Shown here: positions 2,114-11,724 of the stretch, one piece after another | Layout of the letters: each line of letters starts with the position of its first letter | Numbering within the stretch: position 1 is the first letter of the stretch | Assembly (NCBI GenBank): GCA_903848955.1 | Contig: CAINHS010000051.1 | Coordinates: 1-64,000 of the forward strand | Source: an uncultured beta proteobacterium | GTDB taxonomy: Bacteria > Pseudomonadota > Gammaproteobacteria > Burkholderiales > Rhodocyclaceae | Direction of reading: 5' to 3' | DNA: 64,000 nucleotides | The notes under the pieces: generated by a model | Seen by the model: the letters and a program-made list of their open reading frames with translations, nothing else | Databases searched by the model: none | What the model was told of the DNA's origin: nothing | Translations under genes and position numbers: made by a program

Positions 2114-3145
2114 CTACAGCGCGATCGTGGTGACCTGGTGCGACAGTGCCTCGATGCCGCCTTCGTCGAGTTGCAGCAGGCGCCGGCCGAGGGCGACGAA
2201 ATGCAGGCTGCCGGCCGCGGCGGCCTCCGGCAGCAACTCGCCGCCACCGGCACTGGCGCTCGCCGCATAGGCGACGATGAGACGCGGAAACAGTTCGCGG
2301 CGCATGCCATCGAAGGTCGAGAACCAGAAATGCAGCGAGTCCTGTGCGCCCCGCTGCAGCAGAGCGGGCAAGGTCACCAGGCAATCGGCGAGGTTGTCAC
2401 GCACGGCGCGGGACAGCAGTTCGGCGCGTTTGCCGCGAAAGCCCGCAAGCAGCCCTGACCAGTCGTCGCCCAGCAGGCGTCCGGCAGCCCTTTCGCCTTC
2501 CTCGTGCAGCACCAGAGTTTCGACTTCGCCGTCGGTCATGCGCTCGATGGCGCCCTGCGGATCAACGTCGAAGCCGTAGCCGAGCAAGGCGGCTTCCAGC
2601 GCACCGCGCTGCTGCCTGACACTCCAGCCTTCCGCCAGCTCCCACAACCACTGCCGCAGCGCCTCGCGGCGCACGATCAGCGTGCTGCCCTGCGATGCCG
2701 CCGGGATAGCCGAAACATCACGCGCATATTCATAACCGCAGACCAGCAGGCGGGCATCGCCGCGCCGTTCGTCGCGAGCGAGTTTGCCGAGGAAAAAGTG
2801 CGGCTTGTGGAAGCGCCCCACCCCGGCGCCATACATCAGGCCGCTGCCGGCCAGCGCAGCGTTGACCTGCTCGGCGGCGAAGGGATCAAAGTCGCGACCG
2901 GCCACCGGCACGGCAACGAAATCCGCTTCCATCATCTCCTCCCAACGCCGCTCGCGCTCGGCGATCCAGCGTCCCACGTCGTCACGCGGCGGCGCCACGC
3001 CGCAGGGCAGTCGATGCTGCCAGCGATAGAACTCGCGCATCGCCAGCAGGTAACTGCACAGGCTGACATCGCGCGCATGACGCGCATCGGCAATGTCGCA
3101 GTTGGTCTGTACCGCATCAACCAGCGCTGCCATGCCGGCGATCAT
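2114..3145 (-). CDS. Conserved hypothetical protein, 343 aa
   Basis: I do not recognise this protein with confidence. The track extends it to 3181, but the ATG at 3145 overlaps the TGA of the upstream gene (ATGA), which fits the tight operon, so that start is preferred. It is soluble, with no signal peptide or membrane segments and a mixed, mostly helical composition. A conserved-looking stretch, RWEEMMEADF then GRDFDPFAAEQVN, sits near residues 75-105. It ends the five-gene minus-strand run that begins with the HTH/ferredoxin-reductase fusion. Coding potential is supported by length, codon pattern and translational coupling. Function unknown. Confidence 0.8.
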   Translation of the reverse strand: MIAGMAALVDAVQTNCDIADARHARDVSLCSYLLAMREFYRWQHRLPCGVAPPRDDVGRWIAERERRWEEMMEADFVAVPVAGRDFDPFAAEQVNAALAGSGLMYGAGVGRFHKPHFFLGKLARDERRGDARLLVCGYEYARDVSAIPAASQGSTLIVRREALRQWLWELAEGWSVRQQRGALEAALLGYGFDVDPQGAIERMTDGEVETLVLHEEGERAAGRLLGDDWSGLLAGFRGKRAELLSRAVRDNLADCLVTLPALLQRGAQDSLHFWFSTFDGMRRELFPRLIVAYAASASAGGGELLPEAAAAGSLHFVALGRRLLQLDEGGIEALSHQVTTIAL

Positions 3146-3594
3146 CGCGGCCCTCCGGCACCGCGGCGCCGCCCCTTCCACGCCGCCACGCCCTGCACGA
3201 TCTCGGAAAAAGGCAGCTCGCCGAGTTCGCCGTAGCGCTCCTGGGCGAGGCGCACCAGGCGTCGCACATCAGGCGCCACCGCATCGGCATCGAGCAGGGC
3301 CTTCAGGCCGTCGAGTCCGCCGCACTGCAGCTTCATCAGCATCGCGTGCGGCAGGATGCGCTGCGGGCCGCTGAGGCCAAGCGCAAAAGCCGACTTGTCG
3401 CGCAGCAGGGCCGCCATCTGTGCGCACAGAGCGCGCGCCACCGGCTGGGCGCAGGCCACCGTTTCCCGTTCGGCGATCTGGTGCCGCACCGCCAGTTCGC
3501 ACGCGGCATGGCGCGCCAGCAAGGCGCGCTCGAAGACGCAGGGCAAGCGGTTGATCTCGCCCCGGGCGTGGCGGAAGGCCGCTTCGTCGACCAC
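3142..3594 (-). CDS. Conserved hypothetical protein, 150 aa
   Basis: A 150-aa soluble, helical protein with no motif I can name. It starts at a GTG five bases after the TAG of the 77-aa gene, with a possible GAGG ribosome-binding site inside that upstream gene. Its stop overlaps the next start (ATGA). Five cysteines are spread along it (near 19, 32, 48, 57 and 91) but do not form a CxxC cluster. The paired coupling with the 343-aa protein suggests that the two act together. Confidence 0.75.
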   Translation of the reverse strand: MVDEAAFRHARGEINRLPCVFERALLARHAACELAVRHQIAERETVACAQPVARALCAQMAALLRDKSAFALGLSGPQRILPHAMLMKLQCGGLDGLKALLDADAVAPDVRRLVRLAQERYGELGELPFSEIVQGVAAWKGRRRGAGGPR

Positions 3595-3598
3595 GGAA

Positions 3599-3832
3599 CT
3601 AGTTGTCCTCCCCCGTCACCGGCTGTTCGCCGCGCGGCGTATTGAGCAGGTCTTCCGCTTGCAGTTCGTTGTCGGCAAACATGGTCTTGATGGTCTCGCC
3701 CGGCGCCAGGCCGGCATCGCGACGCAGGCGCTTGGCTTCGTCTGAGGCCTCCTTGAAGCTGTCGAACCGGCTGATTTTTGCGAGCTGACGAATCGGCCCG
3801 ACGGGTGTCACCCTGTAGATGTAGTACGGCAT
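3599..3832 (-). CDS. Small conserved protein, 77 aa
   Basis: The track starts this ORF at 4003, inside the S24-like gene. The real start is most likely the ATG at 3832 (MPYYIYRVTPVGP), six bases after the S24-like stop. The 77-aa product is hydrophilic, with a basic helix (EASDEAKRLRRDAG) followed by APGETIKTMFADNE and an acidic tail. No known domain is recognised. It sits between the S24-like gene and the two uncharacterised genes, all closely spaced. Confidence 0.75.
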   Translation of the reverse strand: MPYYIYRVTPVGPIRQLAKISRFDSFKEASDEAKRLRRDAGLAPGETIKTMFADNELQAEDLLNTPRGEQPVTGEDN

Positions 3833-3837
3833 CCGGC

Positions 3838-4209
3838 TTACTCCACGTAACGTTTGCTGGCCCGGCGACGGCCCGGCTTCGATTTTTGAACAATGACGCC
3901 CCTGATGGCGCCGAGGTCGGCAATATCTGCAGCGGGATAGGCCGGATTCAGCGCCTGCAGGCGCCAAGCCTCTCCATGCCGGACCAGCTGGCGGAAAGTC
4001 CACTCGCCCTCAAGTCGGGCGAGAACATACGAACCGTCGCCGGCCAGACCTTCAGGCTCGATCAGGATCACCTCGCCCTCGACAAACTCCGGTTCCATGC
4101 TGTCGCCGAGAACCATCAGGACGAAGGGTTCGGCCGCGGAACAGGCGTCGAGTTCAGGGGCGATGCCCTGCGCCTGAATGGGAATGATGCGTCGCGGTTT
4201 CTCGGCCAT
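3838..4209 (-). CDS. S24/LexA-like protein without HTH, catalytic Lys apparently replaced
   Basis: A 123-aa protein that is mainly a peptidase S24 (LexA/UmuD-like) fold. The serine motif GDSMEPEF is present (S37). In the region matching LexA's TVKRL, which carries the catalytic lysine, this protein reads TFRQL, so the lysine position is arginine (R73). There is no N-terminal DNA-binding domain. Self-cleavage is therefore doubtful, and it may be a structural or sensory relic of the fold. The start at 4209 (MAEKPRR) lies 5 bp after the stop of the fusion gene; the longer track start lies inside that gene. Confidence 0.82.
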   Translation of the reverse strand: MAEKPRRIIPIQAQGIAPELDACSAAEPFVLMVLGDSMEPEFVEGEVILIEPEGLAGDGSYVLARLEGEWTFRQLVRHGEAWRLQALNPAYPAADIADLGAIRGVIVQKSKPGRRRASKRYVE

Positions 4210-4213
4210 GGTA

Positions 4214-5689
4214 TCAAAGCGCCTCAACATGCAATTGGCCGGGCGGTACGCCTGAAGCCAGCAGCATGGCGGCCAGTGGCTCCACGCATCCGGCGGCGCC
4301 GGCAAGATAAATATCGCTCAGCGGCAGGGTAGCATTCGCCGCCAGCAAGGGCGACAGCTCGTCAATCGTCAGCGGCAGGTAGTCGAATTCGTCGAGCGCC
4401 GCGGCCCATGCCCGGCACTGCCCGGGAAGATACTGGCCGCCAGGCCGCGCACTGGCCCAGTAGAGCGAAATCGACTCGGCGGCGTCCAGCGCAATGGCAT
4501 GTTCGATCAGGCTGCTCACGGGGGCAAAGCCGAGGTCGATGGCAATGAAGACCAGCGGACGCGGCGAGCCCTGCTGCAGTATGAAGCTGCCCCATGGCCC
4601 CCATACCGAGATGTCGTCGCCGGCCTTGATCCTGCCGTCGAACAGGCATTGCGAAAAGACATGTGACGGGGCTTGGCCCTCGGTGCGACCGACGTGAAAG
4701 AGCAGGTTGCGGTCATCGCAGGGACAGCTCGCCACCGGGTATTCCCCGTGAAGATCGCTGCCGCTCACCTTGCCGGCGCTGAGTCCCAGCGTGACCCGTT
4801 GCCCGGCGAGAAAGCGCAGGCGGTTGCTGCGCGGCATTTGCAGGTGCAGGCGCATCACCTCGTCGCTCAGCCGATCGACGCTGCGTACCCTGGCGACGAT
4901 GCGCTGCTCGGGGATGTCCTCCGGCACGCCCGCTTCCAGCACTTCCAGCACGAGAGCGGAACTGAGCGCCGTGCAAGAGCACATCAGGATATGGTTCTGA
5001 GCCTTCTCGGCCTCCGAGAAACGGTAGTCATAGGGCGTCACGGAGCGTGCCTCGCCGGCTACCACACGCGCCTTGCACAGGCCGCAGATGCCGTTGCCGC
5101 AACCATAGTTGGGCGCCAGTCCGGCGCGCAGAGCCGCCTGCAGCAGGGTCTCCGAACCCTCGACAAAGAATTCCCGACCCGATGGCTTGACCGTGACGTG
5201 CGCCGACATGACGCTCAGCATAGCATCTAGTGCGGCCACGTCCCGGGCTGGCGCCGGAACGGCCAGAGCCTCTGCCAGTCCGTCGTCCAGCAGCCGGATC
5301 AGTTCGGTCGCGGAGGGCGGCGATGTCGCCGCAAGCCTCGCCTGCAGGGATTCGAACAGGGTGTGGTAGCGCATCAGCGTGCGCTGCAATTCGGTGAGTT
5401 CCTGCCCCTGTGCAAACAGGCGTTGGGCCAGCGCTTCCTGCGTCGGCAGGATGCGCTCGCGCAGCCGCCTGGCAAACGCATCTTCGCGAATCGCCCGGGT
5501 CTTCTCGAAACTGCCCGACTCCTCCAGATCGAGTTCCGGCCGGGTCCGCAGCAAGTCATCCGTTGCCACCATGCCATCGAAGGACTGCAGTTCGCCGTCG
5601 CGGATCTGCTTCTGCAAAGCAATGCGCGAAATGCCGAGCAGGTGTGCGGCGCGGGAAATGGTCAGCCATTGCGACATGCCGTCAAGCAT
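4214..5689 (-). CDS. HTH - coiled-coil - [2Fe-2S] ferredoxin - FNR-like reductase fusion
   Basis: A 491-aa protein with an unusual domain order. Residues 5-50 resemble an excisionase/MerR-type helix-turn-helix (TISRAAHLLGISRIALQK). Residues 60-125 are charged and likely coiled. Residues 165-245 form a plant-type [2Fe-2S] ferredoxin domain with C197, C202, C205 (CGNGICGLC) and a fourth cysteine at C237 or C239. Residues 250-490 look like a ferredoxin-NADP reductase module (FAD then NAD(P) domain). The C-terminal half resembles class IB reductases such as those serving oxygenases. No oxygenase is nearby. Start ATG 5689 or ATG 5677; neither has a clear ribosome-binding site. It heads the five-gene operon. 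Confidence 0.85.
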   Translation of the reverse strand: MLDGMSQWLTISRAAHLLGISRIALQKQIRDGELQSFDGMVATDDLLRTRPELDLEESGSFEKTRAIREDAFARRLRERILPTQEALAQRLFAQGQELTELQRTLMRYHTLFESLQARLAATSPPSATELIRLLDDGLAEALAVPAPARDVAALDAMLSVMSAHVTVKPSGREFFVEGSETLLQAALRAGLAPNYGCGNGICGLCKARVVAGEARSVTPYDYRFSEAEKAQNHILMCSCTALSSALVLEVLEAGVPEDIPEQRIVARVRSVDRLSDEVMRLHLQMPRSNRLRFLAGQRVTLGLSAGKVSGSDLHGEYPVASCPCDDRNLLFHVGRTEGQAPSHVFSQCLFDGRIKAGDDISVWGPWGSFILQQGSPRPLVFIAIDLGFAPVSSLIEHAIALDAAESISLYWASARPGGQYLPGQCRAWAAALDEFDYLPLTIDELSPLLAANATLPLSDIYLAGAAGCVEPLAAMLLASGVPPGQLHVEAL

Positions 5690-5759: not shown

Positions 5760-6212
5760 TCAGTTGCCGGTCATGCGTTCGATGTCCGGTCCCTTGTGGC
5801 AGGCGGCGCAGTCGGCCAGGCTCTTGAGCTTGCCCTTGCGCCAGAGACGGATCGCACCCTGATGCTTGCGCACAAACCAGTCGGCGCTGGTGATGCGCGG
5901 CACGTCGTCGCGGCTGGTAAGGGAACGATTGGCGGCGGCATTGCGTTCCAGGAAGGCTCCGATCTGCTGCCGCAGCGTCGTCTCAAGACTGGCGTCGACG
6001 CCGTAATGCTTGTCCAGCCGCGACATGATGTCGAGCCAGTCGTCCGCCGGCAGCAACGCCGGCGGAAAGGCGATGTGGCAGGCGCTGCATTCGGCGCGCC
6101 AGGCGGCATTGTCCTCGCGCGGCTGCCAGGCGTCGTCGCGCGCGGCGGCGGAAAACGGCACGGCGATGAGCAGCACAAACACCAGTTGTGCGGCCGATGG
6201 CAAATTGATCAT
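5760..6212 (-). CDS. Diheme cytochrome c (DHC-like), periplasmic
   Basis: A 150-aa exported protein. The signal peptide starts at MINLPSAAQLVFVLL, which favours the ATG at 6212 over the longer track start. There are two haem-binding motifs, CSACH near the N-terminus and CAACH near the C-terminus, with the middle of the protein (WLDIMSRLDKHYG, then LERNAA) matching the pattern of the DHC family. DHC proteins usually work with cytochrome b561 and the oxygen-binding SHP cytochrome. Here it follows the MtrAB/c4 genes, although a strong hairpin (6281-6311) separates it from them. Confidence 0.88.
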   Translation of the reverse strand: MINLPSAAQLVFVLLIAVPFSAAARDDAWQPREDNAAWRAECSACHIAFPPALLPADDWLDIMSRLDKHYGVDASLETTLRQQIGAFLERNAAANRSLTSRDDVPRITSADWFVRKHQGAIRLWRKGKLKSLADCAACHKGPDIERMTGN

Positions 6213-6280
6213 GAAGCATTCCGATGTCGAGTCTGCGCCGGCATCGACGCAGCGAACCAAATCACGCCTGCCGATGAAAG

Positions 6281-6311
6281 CACAAGCGCCCCGGCAGGCG
6301 GGGCGCTTGTG
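6281..6311 (-). terminator. Strong hairpin, probable terminator after the c4-like gene
   Basis: A perfect 13-bp stem, CACAAGCGCCCCG / CGGGGCGCTTGTG, with a 5-base loop. It begins 19 bp past the stop of the cytochrome gene at 6330 on the minus strand. The following tract (CTTTCATC) is only weakly T-rich, so termination may be partial and the diheme cytochrome gene could still receive read-through. Confidence 0.6.
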
Positions 6312-6329
6312 TCGCGAACGCGGGGACGC

Positions 6330-6986
6330 CTATTTCTTCGGTGGTGCGAGCTGTGCCATGTAGTCGGCCAGCGCTTCCAGATCGGCGGTCGAGTAGGGCT
6401 TGATCGCCTTCACCATGTCGGGATTCGCGTTGCGACGGTCGCCGTCACGGATGAACTTCAATTCCCGCAGCAGATAGTTGTAGTGCTGGGCCGCCACCAT
6501 GGGATAGAACTTCTCGGCGTTGCCCTCGCCCTTGCCGCCATGGCAACTGGCGCAGTCCCTGTCGTAGATCTGCCGCCCGGCCGCGACGCCGGTGCCGGGA
6601 CCCTTGCCGTTTTCGCTCGAAATCGGCAGCCCCTGCACATAAATCGCAAGATCGGCGATCTCGAAGGCGGTCAGCGCATGGTCGTCGAGGTAAGGCTCCA
6701 TCTTCGGATTGCTACGGCGGCCGGCGCGAATGTCGGCGATCTGCTTGATCAGCACCGTCGCATGCTGACCGGACAGGCGCGGATAGGCACCGCTGGTGCG
6801 GCCCGACGCATCCTTGCGGTGACAGCCGACGCAGGAATCGAAAGCCTTCTCGCCGCGGACCGGATCACCCTTGCTTTCCAGGGCGGCCTTCAACTCCCCT
6901 TTCAATTCGTTCCAGGCCGGCGTCTGTGCCACGGCCGCCAGGGGCAGGGACAGCACTACCATCATCGTTGTCAGAAACTTGTTCAC
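6330..6986 (-). CDS. Diheme c-type cytochrome, c4-like
   Basis: A 218-aa periplasmic cytochrome with signal peptide (MNKFLTTMMVVLSLPLAAVAQ) and two tandem class I haem domains. The haem motifs are CVGCH near residue 52 and CASCH near residue 145; distal methionines are likely in the SNPKMEPY and NPDMVKAI stretches. The GAYPRLSGQHATVLIKQ block is typical of the c4/c553 group. It probably carries electrons in the periplasm between the decaheme conduit and inner-membrane or terminal enzymes. It is 27 bp downstream of a second, different c4-like gene. Confidence 0.92.
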   Translation of the reverse strand: MNKFLTTMMVVLSLPLAAVAQTPAWNELKGELKAALESKGDPVRGEKAFDSCVGCHRKDASGRTSGAYPRLSGQHATVLIKQIADIRAGRRSNPKMEPYLDDHALTAFEIADLAIYVQGLPISSENGKGPGTGVAAGRQIYDRDCASCHGGKGEGNAEKFYPMVAAQHYNYLLRELKFIRDGDRRNANPDMVKAIKPYSTADLEALADYMAQLAPPKK

Positions 6987-7013
6987 GAGTATTTCTCCTG
7001 ATTTCGCAGCATT

Positions 7014-7655
7014 TTACTTTGCGCCAAGGCCGGCAATGTACTGTGCCACGGCGTTGATTTCTTCTTCGCTCAGGCGCTTGGCGGTGACGCGCATGTAGCG
7101 GCTGACGTCGTTGTTGCGCTCGCCGGCCGCAAAGTTTTTCAGTTGCTGGGCCACGTAGGTGGCATGCTGACCGCCGATGCGCGGGTAAATGACATGGCCG
7201 ACGCCTTCCGGCTGGTGACAGCCGACGCAGGCCGGCACGCCGGTTTCTTCGTTGCCATCATGGAAGATCAATTTGCCCAGGGCGACGGCCTTCTTGTCTT
7301 CGGCCTCTCCCGCCTTCATCTTCTGGCTGCTGAAATACGTGGCCAGTGGTGCCACATCTTCCGCCTTTAGCGCAGCGACGACCGGAGCCATGATGTCGCT
7401 CTTGCGTCGCCCGGACATGAAGTCCTTCAACTGCTTGACGATGTACTCCTCCTGCAGACCGGCGATCTTGGGGAACATGGGAATGACGCTGTTGCCATCC
7501 CCGGCGTGGCAAGCGACGCAGACCGTGGCGGCGATGGTCTTGGCATCCTCTGCCGCCGCCGGCCCTGCCAGCATCGCCGCCAGCACCGCGGCAATGACGA
7601 CGACGGCGCGGCCCGGCCCGGCCTTGTGACTGCGATCTCGATCAACTTTGTTCAA
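7014..7655 (-). CDS. Diheme c-type cytochrome, c4-like
   Basis: A 213-aa exported cytochrome with a basic N-terminus, a hydrophobic signal segment ending PAAAEDA, and two class I haem domains. The motifs are CVACH (VCVACHAGDGNS) and CVGCH (PACVGCHQPEG). The second domain has the YPRIGGQHATYVAQQL block of cytochrome c4. It lies 37 bp after the barrel gene in the same direction and ahead of another c4-like gene. The two are clearly diverged, so they may have different potentials or partners. Confidence 0.92.
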   Translation of the reverse strand: MNKVDRDRSHKAGPGRAVVVIAAVLAAMLAGPAAAEDAKTIAATVCVACHAGDGNSVIPMFPKIAGLQEEYIVKQLKDFMSGRRKSDIMAPVVAALKAEDVAPLATYFSSQKMKAGEAEDKKAVALGKLIFHDGNEETGVPACVGCHQPEGVGHVIYPRIGGQHATYVAQQLKNFAAGERNNDVSRYMRVTAKRLSEEEINAVAQYIAGLGAK

Positions 7656-7692
7656 TTTTCAGCTCCTCCGGCAGGATATGGCAACGTCAGTC

Positions 7693-10662
7693 TCACAGCT
7701 TGTAGTGGATGAACACGCCGATGACATTGGCGCGATAGCTCTGGGGCCCGGCATCGAGCAACAGGGTGCCGCTGTCGTAATTGGCGACGGCCCCCGTGAT
7801 CACGCCGTCGTAATGCCAGTCCTTGACCTTGCCGATCTCATAGCGGTCGAACAGGCGTATCGACAGCTTCTTGTCGATCGGGATGAGGAGGTTGAGGTTC
7901 AGGGTGTGCTGGACGTAGGTCATGTTGGGCAGGGCACTGCCGGCGATCACGGCCGCTGCCGCTTGTGTCGCGGCGACGTTGCTTATCGCCGTGCCGCCGT
8001 AGGCATAGTCGATCCGGGTCGTGCTGTTCGAGTAGGTGTAGTCGAGGCCGAACCGCAGACTGCCGAGATCCTTCTGCATGCCGAAGCCGAACACGTCGTT
8101 GCGGTCGTCATTGGTCGATGACCAGGCCGACGACAGCGGACGCCCGCCGTTGGTGCCGCCGATGTTGTCGGCACAGGCCGAGTAGCCGTACAAAGCCAGA
8201 TTGGCGGCGGTGCAGGCCGTATTGACGAGGGAGGCCTGGCCCGAGTTCAGATTCATCGCCTTCTTGCCTTGCTGGTAGGTGTAGAAGGCGTAGAAATTCT
8301 CAGAGGTCGAGGGCTGGTAATTGAGATCCAGGCTCAATGAATTCTGCGTGTCCTTCTCGAGACCGTAGAAGGAATCGGGATACTTCACGTCCTTCATCTG
8401 CAAGGTGGCGCCCAGATCCAGGTCTTCCCGCGCCAGGAAGTTCAGGCGGGCATTGAGGATGTTCTGGTCGCGATCGGCCTGATCGTACTTGCGGAAGTAG
8501 TACGAGTAGCGGTTGAAGAAATTGGCATTGAGGTTCGGATATTGACCGATGCCGGCACCGGTGGCGGCCGTGATATTGGCAAGCAGCGTGGCGATATCGA
8601 GCCCCGGCAACCCTTGGCCGAGATCCTCGAAAGTCCGGTAGCGATACTCTCCACCGCGCTTGCGGTCGGTCTCTGCAGAAAGACGCAATGTGGTGTCCCC
8701 GAGGGCGCGGTTGACATAGCCCAGCTTGAACTTGTCTTCCCAGGTCTTTTCGCGTTCGCGGAAGTTGCGCTTGAAGTCCTCCCGTTCCAGGGCGGCATTG
8801 ATGCTGCTGGTCCGGGTCAGATCGTAGTCCGCGGTCACGCCGTAATTGTCCTGCTTGGTCGATCGCGCCTGGCCGAACACGGGAATGTTGACACCCGAGG
8901 CCACCGTATTGGCGCCTGTCCCGAACTGACAAGTAGCGATCAAAGCATTGCCGGCGAGCCCGGGAGGGACGTAGCAGCTTCCCGCCGTACCCGGCGTCGC
9001 GCCGGGCCGCAGGCCGACTACGCCGTCAAAGCCGCCGAGACCGTTGCCTTCCGCGATGCCCCTGCCGAACTGGCCGGTGAGGGGGTTGTAGGCGATGTAG
9101 CCGCCCTTGTTAACCGTCTCGTAACTGCGGAAACTGCCCTTGACGCTGAGGTCCTCGACCGGCTTGAGAGACAGGCCCAGATCCAGCAGCTTGTTGTCGA
9201 TGCGCTGCCTGGAGGTCGCCTGGCTCAAGGCGGCGGTGGTATTCCAGTTTGACACCAGGCCGCTGTTTGCAGCGTAGCCGATGTTGTTGCTGGTCAGGTT
9301 GGTGATGCCGGCCGCCGCATACTGGGCGCTCTGGGCTGCCGAGATCGGCGCCAGGAGGTCGTCGTTCTGCCGGTTGCTGCCCCAGGACACCGCCGCGGTG
9401 AAGCGCCCCTTGTAGAAGTCGGGTAGCTGGCGTGCAAATTCGCCCTTCAGATTAAAGGCGTGGTTGTCCGGATACAGGTCGTAGGTGGCCGCCTGCACCA
9501 CGCCGTTGCCGCCGGCAACGCCGAGCAGCGGATACTGCACGTTCAGCGTGCTGATGTTGTTGCGGAACATCGACATGGAGGCGCGCAGATTGGCCTGGGT
9601 GAGCGAGTCGGCATACTGCAGACCCGCCAGAAGTTCGTGGGTATCGTAGTCGATGGGTTCGGCGATTTCGCTCGAGATATTGGCCTCGTTCATGGCGAAC
9701 GGCCGGCTGCCCTTGCGCTTCTCGCTGCTGTAGCTGGCATAGCCTTTCCAGAAGTTGTCCAGCGTCGCTTCGAGGCGCAGCCCGCCCTTCTTGCGCACCA
9801 GGGACAGTTCGCTGTCCGCAGTTGCCGCCGCCTTGTTGCTGAGGGCCAGCGCCATGTTGGACTGTTCCGAGCCGGCAACCAGCGCACCTGCGGCGTTATA
9901 GGTGCCGACAATGCCGTTGATGCCGGCGAGCGCCGTGCCGTTGGCGTAGAGTTTGCCGTTGTAGGCCCAGCATGGAGCAATCGCAGTACAAGCACCGGCG
10001 GCACCATAGGCGGCGAGACCGAGCGTGGTCGCCTGGGCGGCGAGCGTGCCTGATGTCACTGCCCTCGGCGCGGCAAGCCCGGTCGTCAGATCGCCCGACC
10101 CCTCGCCGTTGTAGATCGACTTCCAGTTGTCGCTGAAAACGTGGATGGTCTCGCTGTAGAACAGTTTGGCCTTCCAGTCGTTGTAGCGCCCGAATTGCAT
10201 GCCGTAAAACTGGTCCTGCCGCCCGGCGCCGCCGCCGAAAGCCTGGATGAAGTTGGCGCTGTCGGGCTTTTCCGCTTCAATCTCGAAGTAGTCGAGATAG
10301 GCGCCGTTCTTCAAGTCCTTGTACTTGCGGAACAGCGCGTTCTTCCTGCCGGCGTCGCCGCCGATCACGCCGACCTCGACGCCGCCGGAATATTCCCAGC
10401 CGCCCGCGGTCTTGTTGCCGCCTTCAGCGGCGCGGTCGTAGGGGATGCCGTAAAGCTGGCCTGACGGCGAGTGGCGCACGGTATCGAGCCCGTCGTCCGC
10501 CAGGGGGCGCGGCACGGCCGAGCGGCCGGGCGGATTAAGGGCGTTGCCGAGGGCGGTGTCGACGCCGACGGCCGAGTCGGCGCGGGCGGAACCGGCACCC
10601 CACTGGGCAAGGGCGACGCCGACGCAGGCGGCGATTATTTTCAAGCGGGGACGAGTCGTCAT
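7693..10662 (-). CDS. mtrB: MtrB/PioB-family decaheme-associated outer membrane protein
   Basis: A 989-aa outer-membrane beta-barrel that in this family sheathes a decaheme cytochrome across the outer membrane. The start at 10662 (MTTRPRLKIIAACVGVALAQ) gives a good signal peptide and has GGGAG about 7 bases upstream; the track start at 10695 adds 11 unlikely residues. The mature part is rich in alternating aromatic/charged strands, such as YLDYFEIEAEKP, and ends in an aromatic-rich strand (GVFIHYKL). No N-terminal CxxC like that of Shewanella MtrB is seen. At nearly 1000 aa it is larger than Shewanella MtrB. Several cysteine pairs sit in predicted loops. The decaheme gene lies just upstream. 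Confidence 0.93.
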   Translation of the reverse strand: MTTRPRLKIIAACVGVALAQWGAGSARADSAVGVDTALGNALNPPGRSAVPRPLADDGLDTVRHSPSGQLYGIPYDRAAEGGNKTAGGWEYSGGVEVGVIGGDAGRKNALFRKYKDLKNGAYLDYFEIEAEKPDSANFIQAFGGGAGRQDQFYGMQFGRYNDWKAKLFYSETIHVFSDNWKSIYNGEGSGDLTTGLAAPRAVTSGTLAAQATTLGLAAYGAAGACTAIAPCWAYNGKLYANGTALAGINGIVGTYNAAGALVAGSEQSNMALALSNKAAATADSELSLVRKKGGLRLEATLDNFWKGYASYSSEKRKGSRPFAMNEANISSEIAEPIDYDTHELLAGLQYADSLTQANLRASMSMFRNNISTLNVQYPLLGVAGGNGVVQAATYDLYPDNHAFNLKGEFARQLPDFYKGRFTAAVSWGSNRQNDDLLAPISAAQSAQYAAAGITNLTSNNIGYAANSGLVSNWNTTAALSQATSRQRIDNKLLDLGLSLKPVEDLSVKGSFRSYETVNKGGYIAYNPLTGQFGRGIAEGNGLGGFDGVVGLRPGATPGTAGSCYVPPGLAGNALIATCQFGTGANTVASGVNIPVFGQARSTKQDNYGVTADYDLTRTSSINAALEREDFKRNFREREKTWEDKFKLGYVNRALGDTTLRLSAETDRKRGGEYRYRTFEDLGQGLPGLDIATLLANITAATGAGIGQYPNLNANFFNRYSYYFRKYDQADRDQNILNARLNFLAREDLDLGATLQMKDVKYPDSFYGLEKDTQNSLSLDLNYQPSTSENFYAFYTYQQGKKAMNLNSGQASLVNTACTAANLALYGYSACADNIGGTNGGRPLSSAWSSTNDDRNDVFGFGMQKDLGSLRFGLDYTYSNSTTRIDYAYGGTAISNVAATQAAAAVIAGSALPNMTYVQHTLNLNLLIPIDKKLSIRLFDRYEIGKVKDWHYDGVITGAVANYDSGTLLLDAGPQSYRANVIGVFIHYKL

Positions 10663-10716
10663 GCAAGAACTCCCGGAGGTATTGAACTGAGCCATTTAGC
10701 AGTCTCCCGTATCAGG

Positions 10717-11724
10717 TCAGCGCTGGAAGCGGGCGCCGGAAGGACTGTTGCTGCCGTGGATCGCCGAATGGCATTCCTGGCAGGAACGACCGGTCATGCG
10801 CTTGGTCGGGAGATTGCCCAGTGCGCCACCCATCTGGTTGGTGGTGGCAATCGCCGACGCGGTATTGCCCAGCGTATTGTTGCCCCACACGGCGTGGCCC
10901 ATGGTGCCGGTGGTGCTGTGGCAGCCGGAACAGAGGAAGGGCCGCGTCTGCACCAGCAGCTTGTCGGCGTTGGAGCCGTGCGCATAGTGGCAGTTCAGGC
11001 AATTCTCGCGCACCGGCGCATGCTCCCAGAGGAAGGGACCGCGCTTCTCCATGTGACAGGTGTAGCAGAGTTCATTGACGCTGTCGGCCTTGAGCAGTCG
11101 CTTCGAACTGCTGCCGTGGGGGTTGTGGCAATCCTCGCAGGTCATCTTGCCTTCGGGCACCGGCATGTGCGACTTCTTGCGGAACTCGGCGCGCTGCTGC
11201 TGATGGCAGGTCTGGCAGGTTTCCGTGATGCCGGCCTTCTTCATCAGGCCGTTGGCGGAAAACCGCGCCATCGGATTGTGGCAGTCGGAGCAGGCAAGCT
11301 TGTTGGTGGCGTGGATCGAACCCGGCCAGTGCAGACGCTGACCGCCGGAATGGCAGTTGAGGCACTGCCCGTTCTGGCGCTCGATGGCGGTACCCCACTC
11401 CTTGGAAAAGCCGATGATCTTGTTCTTGTCCTTGGTGTCGACGGCATGCAGCGAACCGGGGCCGTGACAGGCTTCGCAGACCGCCTTCTCGGTTTCGTTG
11501 CGCGGGTTTTCGCGGAACACCTTGGCGTGCTGGGTGTGGCCGAAAAGGCTCTTCTCGGTGTCGTGGCACTCACCGCAGCGCTTTTCGCCGACGATCCGGG
11601 CATTGGCCATCGGATCGCCTTCGGCCGAGGCTGAGGCCGCGTGGGCAGGCGCCAGGCCGAACAGCAGTGCCGCAGCGGCAAGCGCGCAGGACCTGAGGAA
11701 CGTGACTGTATGATTTGTTGCCAT
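10717..11724 (-). CDS. mtrA: Decaheme c-type cytochrome, MtrA/MtoA/PioA (DmsE) family
   Basis: A 335-aa periplasmic decaheme cytochrome. After a signal peptide (..GLAPAHAAS) exactly ten CxxCH motifs occur, in order CGECH, CEACH, CLNCH, CSDCH, CQTCH, CEDCH, CYTCH, CLNCH, CSGCH and CQECH. Repeated HxPVPEGKMTCEDCHNPHG-like blocks are typical of MtrA. It should plug the barrel encoded next and conduct electrons through the outer membrane, either outward (metal reduction) or inward (Fe(II) oxidation, as proposed for MtoAB and PioAB). No MtrC-like surface cytochrome is present in the window. It starts the operon, divergent from a two-component system. An AAGGGGA ribosome-binding site lies upstream. 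Confidence 0.95.
   Translation of the reverse strand: MATNHTVTFLRSCALAAAALLFGLAPAHAASASAEGDPMANARIVGEKRCGECHDTEKSLFGHTQHAKVFRENPRNETEKAVCEACHGPGSLHAVDTKDKNKIIGFSKEWGTAIERQNGQCLNCHSGGQRLHWPGSIHATNKLACSDCHNPMARFSANGLMKKAGITETCQTCHQQQRAEFRKKSHMPVPEGKMTCEDCHNPHGSSSKRLLKADSVNELCYTCHMEKRGPFLWEHAPVRENCLNCHYAHGSNADKLLVQTRPFLCSGCHSTTGTMGHAVWGNNTLGNTASAIATTNQMGGALGNLPTKRMTGRSCQECHSAIHGSNSPSGARFQR

Follow-up and report, generated by a model that had tools for sequence, protein, structure and literature searches.

The locus studied here raises the question of what role may be played by a single protein in which a DNA-binding fold is joined to a ferredoxin and to a module resembling a flavin reductase. 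It lies in the window, i.e., the whole 64,000-nucleotide stretch of contig CAINHS010000051.1 that was analysed, which derives from an uncultured beta proteobacterium of the Rhodocyclaceae. The initial annotation recognized in one 491-aa chain an excisionase-like helix-turn-helix (HTH), a charged coiled region, a ferredoxin, and an FNR-like module, and results of our analysis confirm this layout. We named the protein HFF, for a fusion of winged HTH (wHTH), helical stalk, [2Fe-2S] ferredoxin, and FNR fold. No published description of such a fusion was found in the accessible parts of the open-licence literature.

Domain organization of HFF

The sequence of HFF matches Fer2 (E-value 1.2e-12) and FAD_binding_6 (1.3e-4), both over the Pfam cut-off, and its AlphaFold model (mean pLDDT 88.9) comprises a winged HTH, helices, a ferredoxin, and an FNR fold (Table 1). 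The charged coiled region is modelled as a stalk of four helices (residues 60-77, 84-121, 126-142, and 148-161). Judging from the alignment, the occurrence of the fusion is far beyond chance, because 70 full-length HFF sequences could be aligned, of which the others are 35-78% identical to the window protein. The wHTH is conserved as well as the ferredoxin (mean pairwise identity of 54% vs. 57%), and the corresponding values for the FNR module and the stalk are 43% and 32%. The start common to at least 90% of the aligned homologs is M5 (position 5677), four codons after the ATG at 5689, which may therefore be too early an assignment.

The excisionase-like HTH is modelled at a pLDDT of about 90 and is present in more than 90 homologs. 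In the window protein, the match to HTH_17 (residues 8-36, E-value 0.0067) is under the Pfam cut-off; 29 of the 70 homologs match HTH_17 (best E-value 2.3e-5), and 29 match HTH_8 (best E-value 1.1e-4). The AlphaFold model assigns to this block (pLDDT 90-94) a strand at residues 8-10, helices at 11-18 and 22-30, a strand at 40-42, and a helix at 43-49, and the same elements were recovered in a separate model of residues 1-125. The solved structures nearest to the latter are those of MerR regulators, phage Xis (probability 0.97), BldC on DNA (probability 0.93), and RdfS. Their E-values are weak, which is common with domains of 50 residues, and the top of the list of matches is consistent despite this. 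CbpM is also among the fold matches, and winged HTHs of the MerR/Xis kind can bind proteins rather than DNA. Two wHTH residues, R22 and G39, are invariant in the alignment. Since an HTH is predicted at the N-terminus and is kept intact in the homologs, neither of the doubts that accompanied the initial annotation applies, namely that this part is not an HTH, or that close homologs lack it because of an upstream frameshift; a frameshift or a mis-annotated start as the origin of the HTH was thus rejected.

Table 1. Features of HFF and of the genes downstream of it in the window
Feature	Positions	Strand	Basis
HFF: wHTH - helical stalk - [2Fe-2S] ferredoxin - FNR-fold fusion, 491 aa	4214..5689	-	Pfam, alignment, AlphaFold; conserved start M5 at 5677
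Winged HTH, MerR/Xis/BldC type, residues 5-52	5534..5677	-	Pfam across homologs, two models, fold matches, 54% mean pairwise identity
Helical stalk, residues 53-161; possible dimerization region	5207..5533	-	AlphaFold secondary structure
Plant-type ferredoxin domain, residues 162-250	4940..5206	-	Pfam; [2Fe-2S] ligands C197, C202, C205, and C237 invariant (70/70)
FNR-fold module, residues 262-491; RxYS replaced by GEYP (315-318), GGTG-type motif degenerate (384-387)	4217..4906	-	Sequence and structure comparison
Cys-Pro-Cys, C322-P323-C324	4718..4726	-	C322 and C324 in 70/70; also in all HTH-less homologs examined
S24/lambda-CI-C-terminal-like protein without HTH, 123 aa; dyad Ser kept, Lys replaced by Arg (FRQL)	3838..4209	-	Family search, homolog comparison
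Conserved 77-aa protein, no family	3599..3832	-	Locus comparison
Conserved 150-aa cysteine-bearing protein, no family	3142..3594	-	Family search, locus comparison
DUF6866/Sfum_1244 family protein	2114..3145	-	Family search

The ferredoxin-FNR core

The Fer2 cysteines are spaced as C-x4-C-x2-C ... C, which is the pattern of plant-type ferredoxins, and a [2Fe-2S] cluster would be expected there. The module that follows is modelled as a full FNR fold at confident pLDDT, and the solved structures nearest to it are those of the two-component reductases T4moF, BenC, and carbazole dioxygenase reductase. Against the NCBIfam model of BenC, HFF scores 97.9 bits, with the cut-off at 430. In HFF homologs, the Arg of the flavin motif RxYS is left in 3 of the 70 sequences (lost in 67) and its Ser in 10, and the residues in place of the GGTG-type NAD(P) motif are mostly x-D-x-G, the glycines being largely gone. 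A canonical paralog encoded elsewhere in the same genome (G000:C116) keeps both motifs, as RRAFS and GGTG. Judged by what is established for enzymes of the FNR family, this erosion speaks against electron flow of the ordinary kind from NAD(P)H through flavin to [2Fe-2S] in HFF, and the electron-input module that the initial annotation attributed to the protein is not borne out in that form. The core has gained a Cys-Pro-Cys (CPC) motif directly after the place of RxYS, beside the former flavin site. The redox-sensing role suggested in the same annotation stands as plausible.

Association with dsrA and sulfur oxidation

Reverse-Dsr is one of the main routes of biological sulfur oxidation. HFF is tied to it and is almost confined to bacteria that oxidize stored sulfur by this route. 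The full fusion is encoded by about 68 of 399 genomes of the order Burkholderiales. In a chosen set of 80 Burkholderiales genomes, dsrA was present in all 47 that encode HFF and in 4 of the 33 that do not (Fisher p = 8e-18, with genomes taken as independent), and two of the four exceptions (G078 and G241) carry HTH-less versions. The relation holds within a single genus (g80), where two genomes (G190 and G281) have both HFF and dsr and three (G115, G251, and G365) have neither. General thiosulfate oxidation was rejected as the true correlate of HFF, as the association with soxB in the same set (42/47 vs. 17/33) is weaker than that with dsrA. In the wider class, dsrA was found in 31 of 36 genomes with HFF, in 26 of 27 with the HTH-less form only, and in 2 of 17 with neither, some of the absences being in incomplete or fragmented assemblies; outside the class the fusion is rare.

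In a subset of loci, orthologs of HFF adjoin dsrA or dsrAB, dsrJOPN, TusA, or DsrC/TusE genes. HFF and the dsr cluster are on different contigs in the window genome, and the part of the cluster that was read spans dsrA to dsrP. In three gammaproteobacterial loci (L122, L124, and L125), an HTH-less gene comes immediately 3' of the gene that occupies the place of dsrS in the order dsrN-R-S; DsrS was named here by position alone, there being no DsrS model in Pfam or NCBIfam. This gene order has been described in a paper in which the functions of DsrR and DsrS were still regarded as unresolved (PMC3368242). A search of the window genome with one query found no DsrS homolog.

Sequences upstream of dsrA

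The search of dsrA promoters revealed a palindrome, attACCC-n-ta-n-GGGTaat, roughly 95-260 bp before dsrA, with a score of at least 12 in 38 of 41 promoters (L126:8293-8310 and upstream regions L141-L180). Its motif score is 189 vs. 42-55 in shuffles, and it is nearly unique in the window genome. The palindrome is also present in two genomes that lack HFF (G037 and G078), its variants occur in gammaproteobacteria with the HTH-less form only, and before HFF itself it was found in 5 of 133 regions. The palindrome was an attractive candidate for the HFF operator, but because its presence is independent of HFF and most HFF genes lack it, we did not assign it as such.

Other genes divergent from dsrA deserve mention. 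A protein of the Cas6/Cmx6 family (L126:7353-7946, G000:C15; TIGR02807, over the cut-off) is encoded mostly within about 1 kb of dsrA, divergently from it, and the family was found in 30 of 32 dsrA-bearing genomes tested and in 0 of 18 that lack dsrA. The link of a Cas6-type protein to sulfur oxidation, not to CRISPR, looks unexplained. Also in the divergent cluster (L126:4801-6308) are genes for a protein of the TauD family and for one of 202 aa that has no family, and other genomes have homologs of both in the vicinity of dsr genes.

Gene neighborhood of HFF

The genes downstream of HFF, encoding the S24-like, 77-aa, 150-aa, and DUF6866 proteins, are retained by close relatives as well as at several loci linked to dsr; in one locus (L058), genes for MoxR, VWA (DUF2201), and a DsrS-like protein lie between HFF and the remainder of the set. 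The description of the operon partners as mostly uncharacterized agrees with our searches. Nothing on DUF6866/Sfum_1244 was found in open-licence papers. This family is represented in 37 of 47 genomes with the fusion vs. 2 of 33 without it, and both of the latter two bear dsrA. The S24-like protein resembles the C-terminal domain of lambda CI. It is probably not self-cleaving, since nearly all homologs have Arg where the catalytic Lys would be expected, and a split-repressor arrangement of HFF and this protein is conceivable.

Directly upstream of HFF, the window (5760-11724) encodes a DmsE-type decahaem cytochrome, an MtrB/PioB-type porin, two di-haem c-type cytochromes, and a dihaem cytochrome. 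At all 62 homologous loci compared, HFF has no MtrB, DmsE, or cytochrome gene as its neighbor. That this adjacency is unique to the window genome among them suggests that a cluster for extracellular electron transfer was recently inserted upstream of HFF.

HTH-less homologs and evolution of the fusion

The CPC motif is not limited to the fusion, as it is present in all HTH-less homologs examined. At the flavin site, some of these retain R and S (PRNKS), and for this reason the loss of flavin may be specific to the fusion. In a maximum-likelihood tree, two HTH-less groups are placed outside the clade of all fusions (support 91/98, one value being just under the threshold), and the presence and absence of the HTH require five label changes, with several forks unresolved. 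Such a number agrees with a single acquisition of the HTH by a Dsr-linked core, followed by about four losses. In two homologs (L092:8317-9507 and L095:8543-9631), an internal deletion took most of the HTH and the stalk and left the core intact; the first HTH residues remain before the deletion. Several genomes encode both the HTH-bearing and the HTH-less form. The sharing of the same core by HTH-less homologs shows that the core functions also without DNA binding.

Comparison with known systems

SoxR, a [2Fe-2S] regulator of the MerR family, has a winged HTH, a helical linker, and a [2Fe-2S] cluster on the C-terminal side in a short CX2CXCX5C loop. HFF resembles it in the N-terminal winged HTH of the same superfamily, the helical linker, and the predicted cluster towards the C-terminus. 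However, the latter belongs in HFF to a complete ferredoxin domain of the plant type, after which comes the CPC-bearing FNR fold, and there is no CX2CXCX5C loop. The operator of SoxR-type regulators is a palindrome within the promoter spacer, and the palindrome before dsrA showed no tie to HFF. With reductases of the BenC, T4moF, and carbazole dioxygenase type, which are its best sequence and structure matches, HFF shares the order and fold of ferredoxin and FNR and the four-cysteine Fer2, but it is under the NCBIfam cut-off, lacks the RxYS Arg and the NAD(P) glycines, and has CPC, HTH, and stalk added. The HTH-less homologs, sometimes encoded 3' of dsrS, have the Fer2-FNR core, the CPC, and the dsrA link in common with HFF and differ from it in the lack of HTH and stalk and, in some members, in the R and S of the flavin site. 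BldC, Xis, and RdfS are similar to HFF in the fold of residues 5-52, but each of them is a separate DNA-binding protein to which no redox domain is attached.

Proposed function of HFF

We propose, with our confidence evenly divided for and against, that HFF is a DNA-binding regulator in reverse-Dsr sulfur oxidizers, the DNA binding of which would depend on the state of its C-terminal half. The MerR/Xis-type wHTH would bind DNA, and the stalk would probably hold an HFF dimer. The plant-type [2Fe-2S] cluster would sense the redox state or sulfane sulfur, the CPC beside the former flavin site probably sharing in this, and the FNR fold, with its standard NAD(P)H-driven reductase activity gone, would be a scaffold or a docking surface. 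The targets would be Dsr or sulfur genes. The wHTH fold and its strong conservation, the invariant Fer2 and CPC cysteines, the co-occurrence with dsrA, the dsr-adjacent orthologs, and a tree compatible with a single acquisition of the HTH by a Dsr-linked core argue for this proposal. Against it are the lack of an assignable target site, the homologs that lost the HTH and kept the core, and the ability of such wHTHs to bind proteins.

The main alternative is one that we consider possible although rather doubtful: HFF may be primarily an electron carrier or a sulfur-relay accessory of Dsr (acting with DsrAB, DsrC, or in siroheme/Fe-S repair), with the HTH as a protein-docking or minor regulatory add-on. 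Consistent with it, homologs that have the same Fer2, FNR fold, and CPC but no HTH follow dsrA equally well (26/27), their gene is directly 3' of dsrS in the dsr operon of some gammaproteobacteria, and about four losses of the HTH have occurred, those in L092 and L095 by internal deletion. However, where the HTH is present, it is conserved like the ferredoxin, with R22 and G39 invariant, and several genomes have both forms, which points to a role of its own for the one with the HTH. It is improbable, in our opinion, that HFF reports the NADH/NAD+ ratio by means of an FNR module that has kept FAD and NADH binding through altered contacts and actively reduces the [2Fe-2S] cluster. The confidently modelled full FNR fold, its structural proximity to T4moF, BenC, and carbazole dioxygenase reductase, and the R and S of PRNKS in some HTH-less homologs would agree with such a function, but the RxYS Arg (3/70), its Ser (10/70), and most of the GGTG-type glycines have been lost. 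That HFF controls the cytochrome/MtrB-type genes for extracellular electron transfer that directly precede it has a very slight probability. These genes share its strand, and a gap of about 70 bp separates HFF from the dihaem cytochrome gene, but this adjacency is special to the window genome, and such control was rejected by synteny (0/62 loci).

The regulator proposal can be extended, tentatively and with the balance against it, to a view of HFF as the missing transcriptional sensor of reverse-Dsr. A DNA-binding head would have been fused to a Dsr-linked redox protein, sulfane sulfur or the redox state would be read by the CPC and [2Fe-2S] in a repurposed ferredoxin reductase, and the non-cleaving CI-like protein would be a partner. 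The accessible parts of the open-licence literature examined give no dedicated transcriptional regulator of reverse-Dsr, although DsrR has been linked to regulation (PMC11406059). As the fusion is found almost only with dsrA, HFF is a candidate for a redox regulator of reverse-Dsr, and a concrete one, open to deletion and purification. It would extend the Fe-S redox regulators with a layout of which no description was found in the accessible open-licence literature. If our proposal is true, a ferredoxin reductase would have been turned into a sensor.
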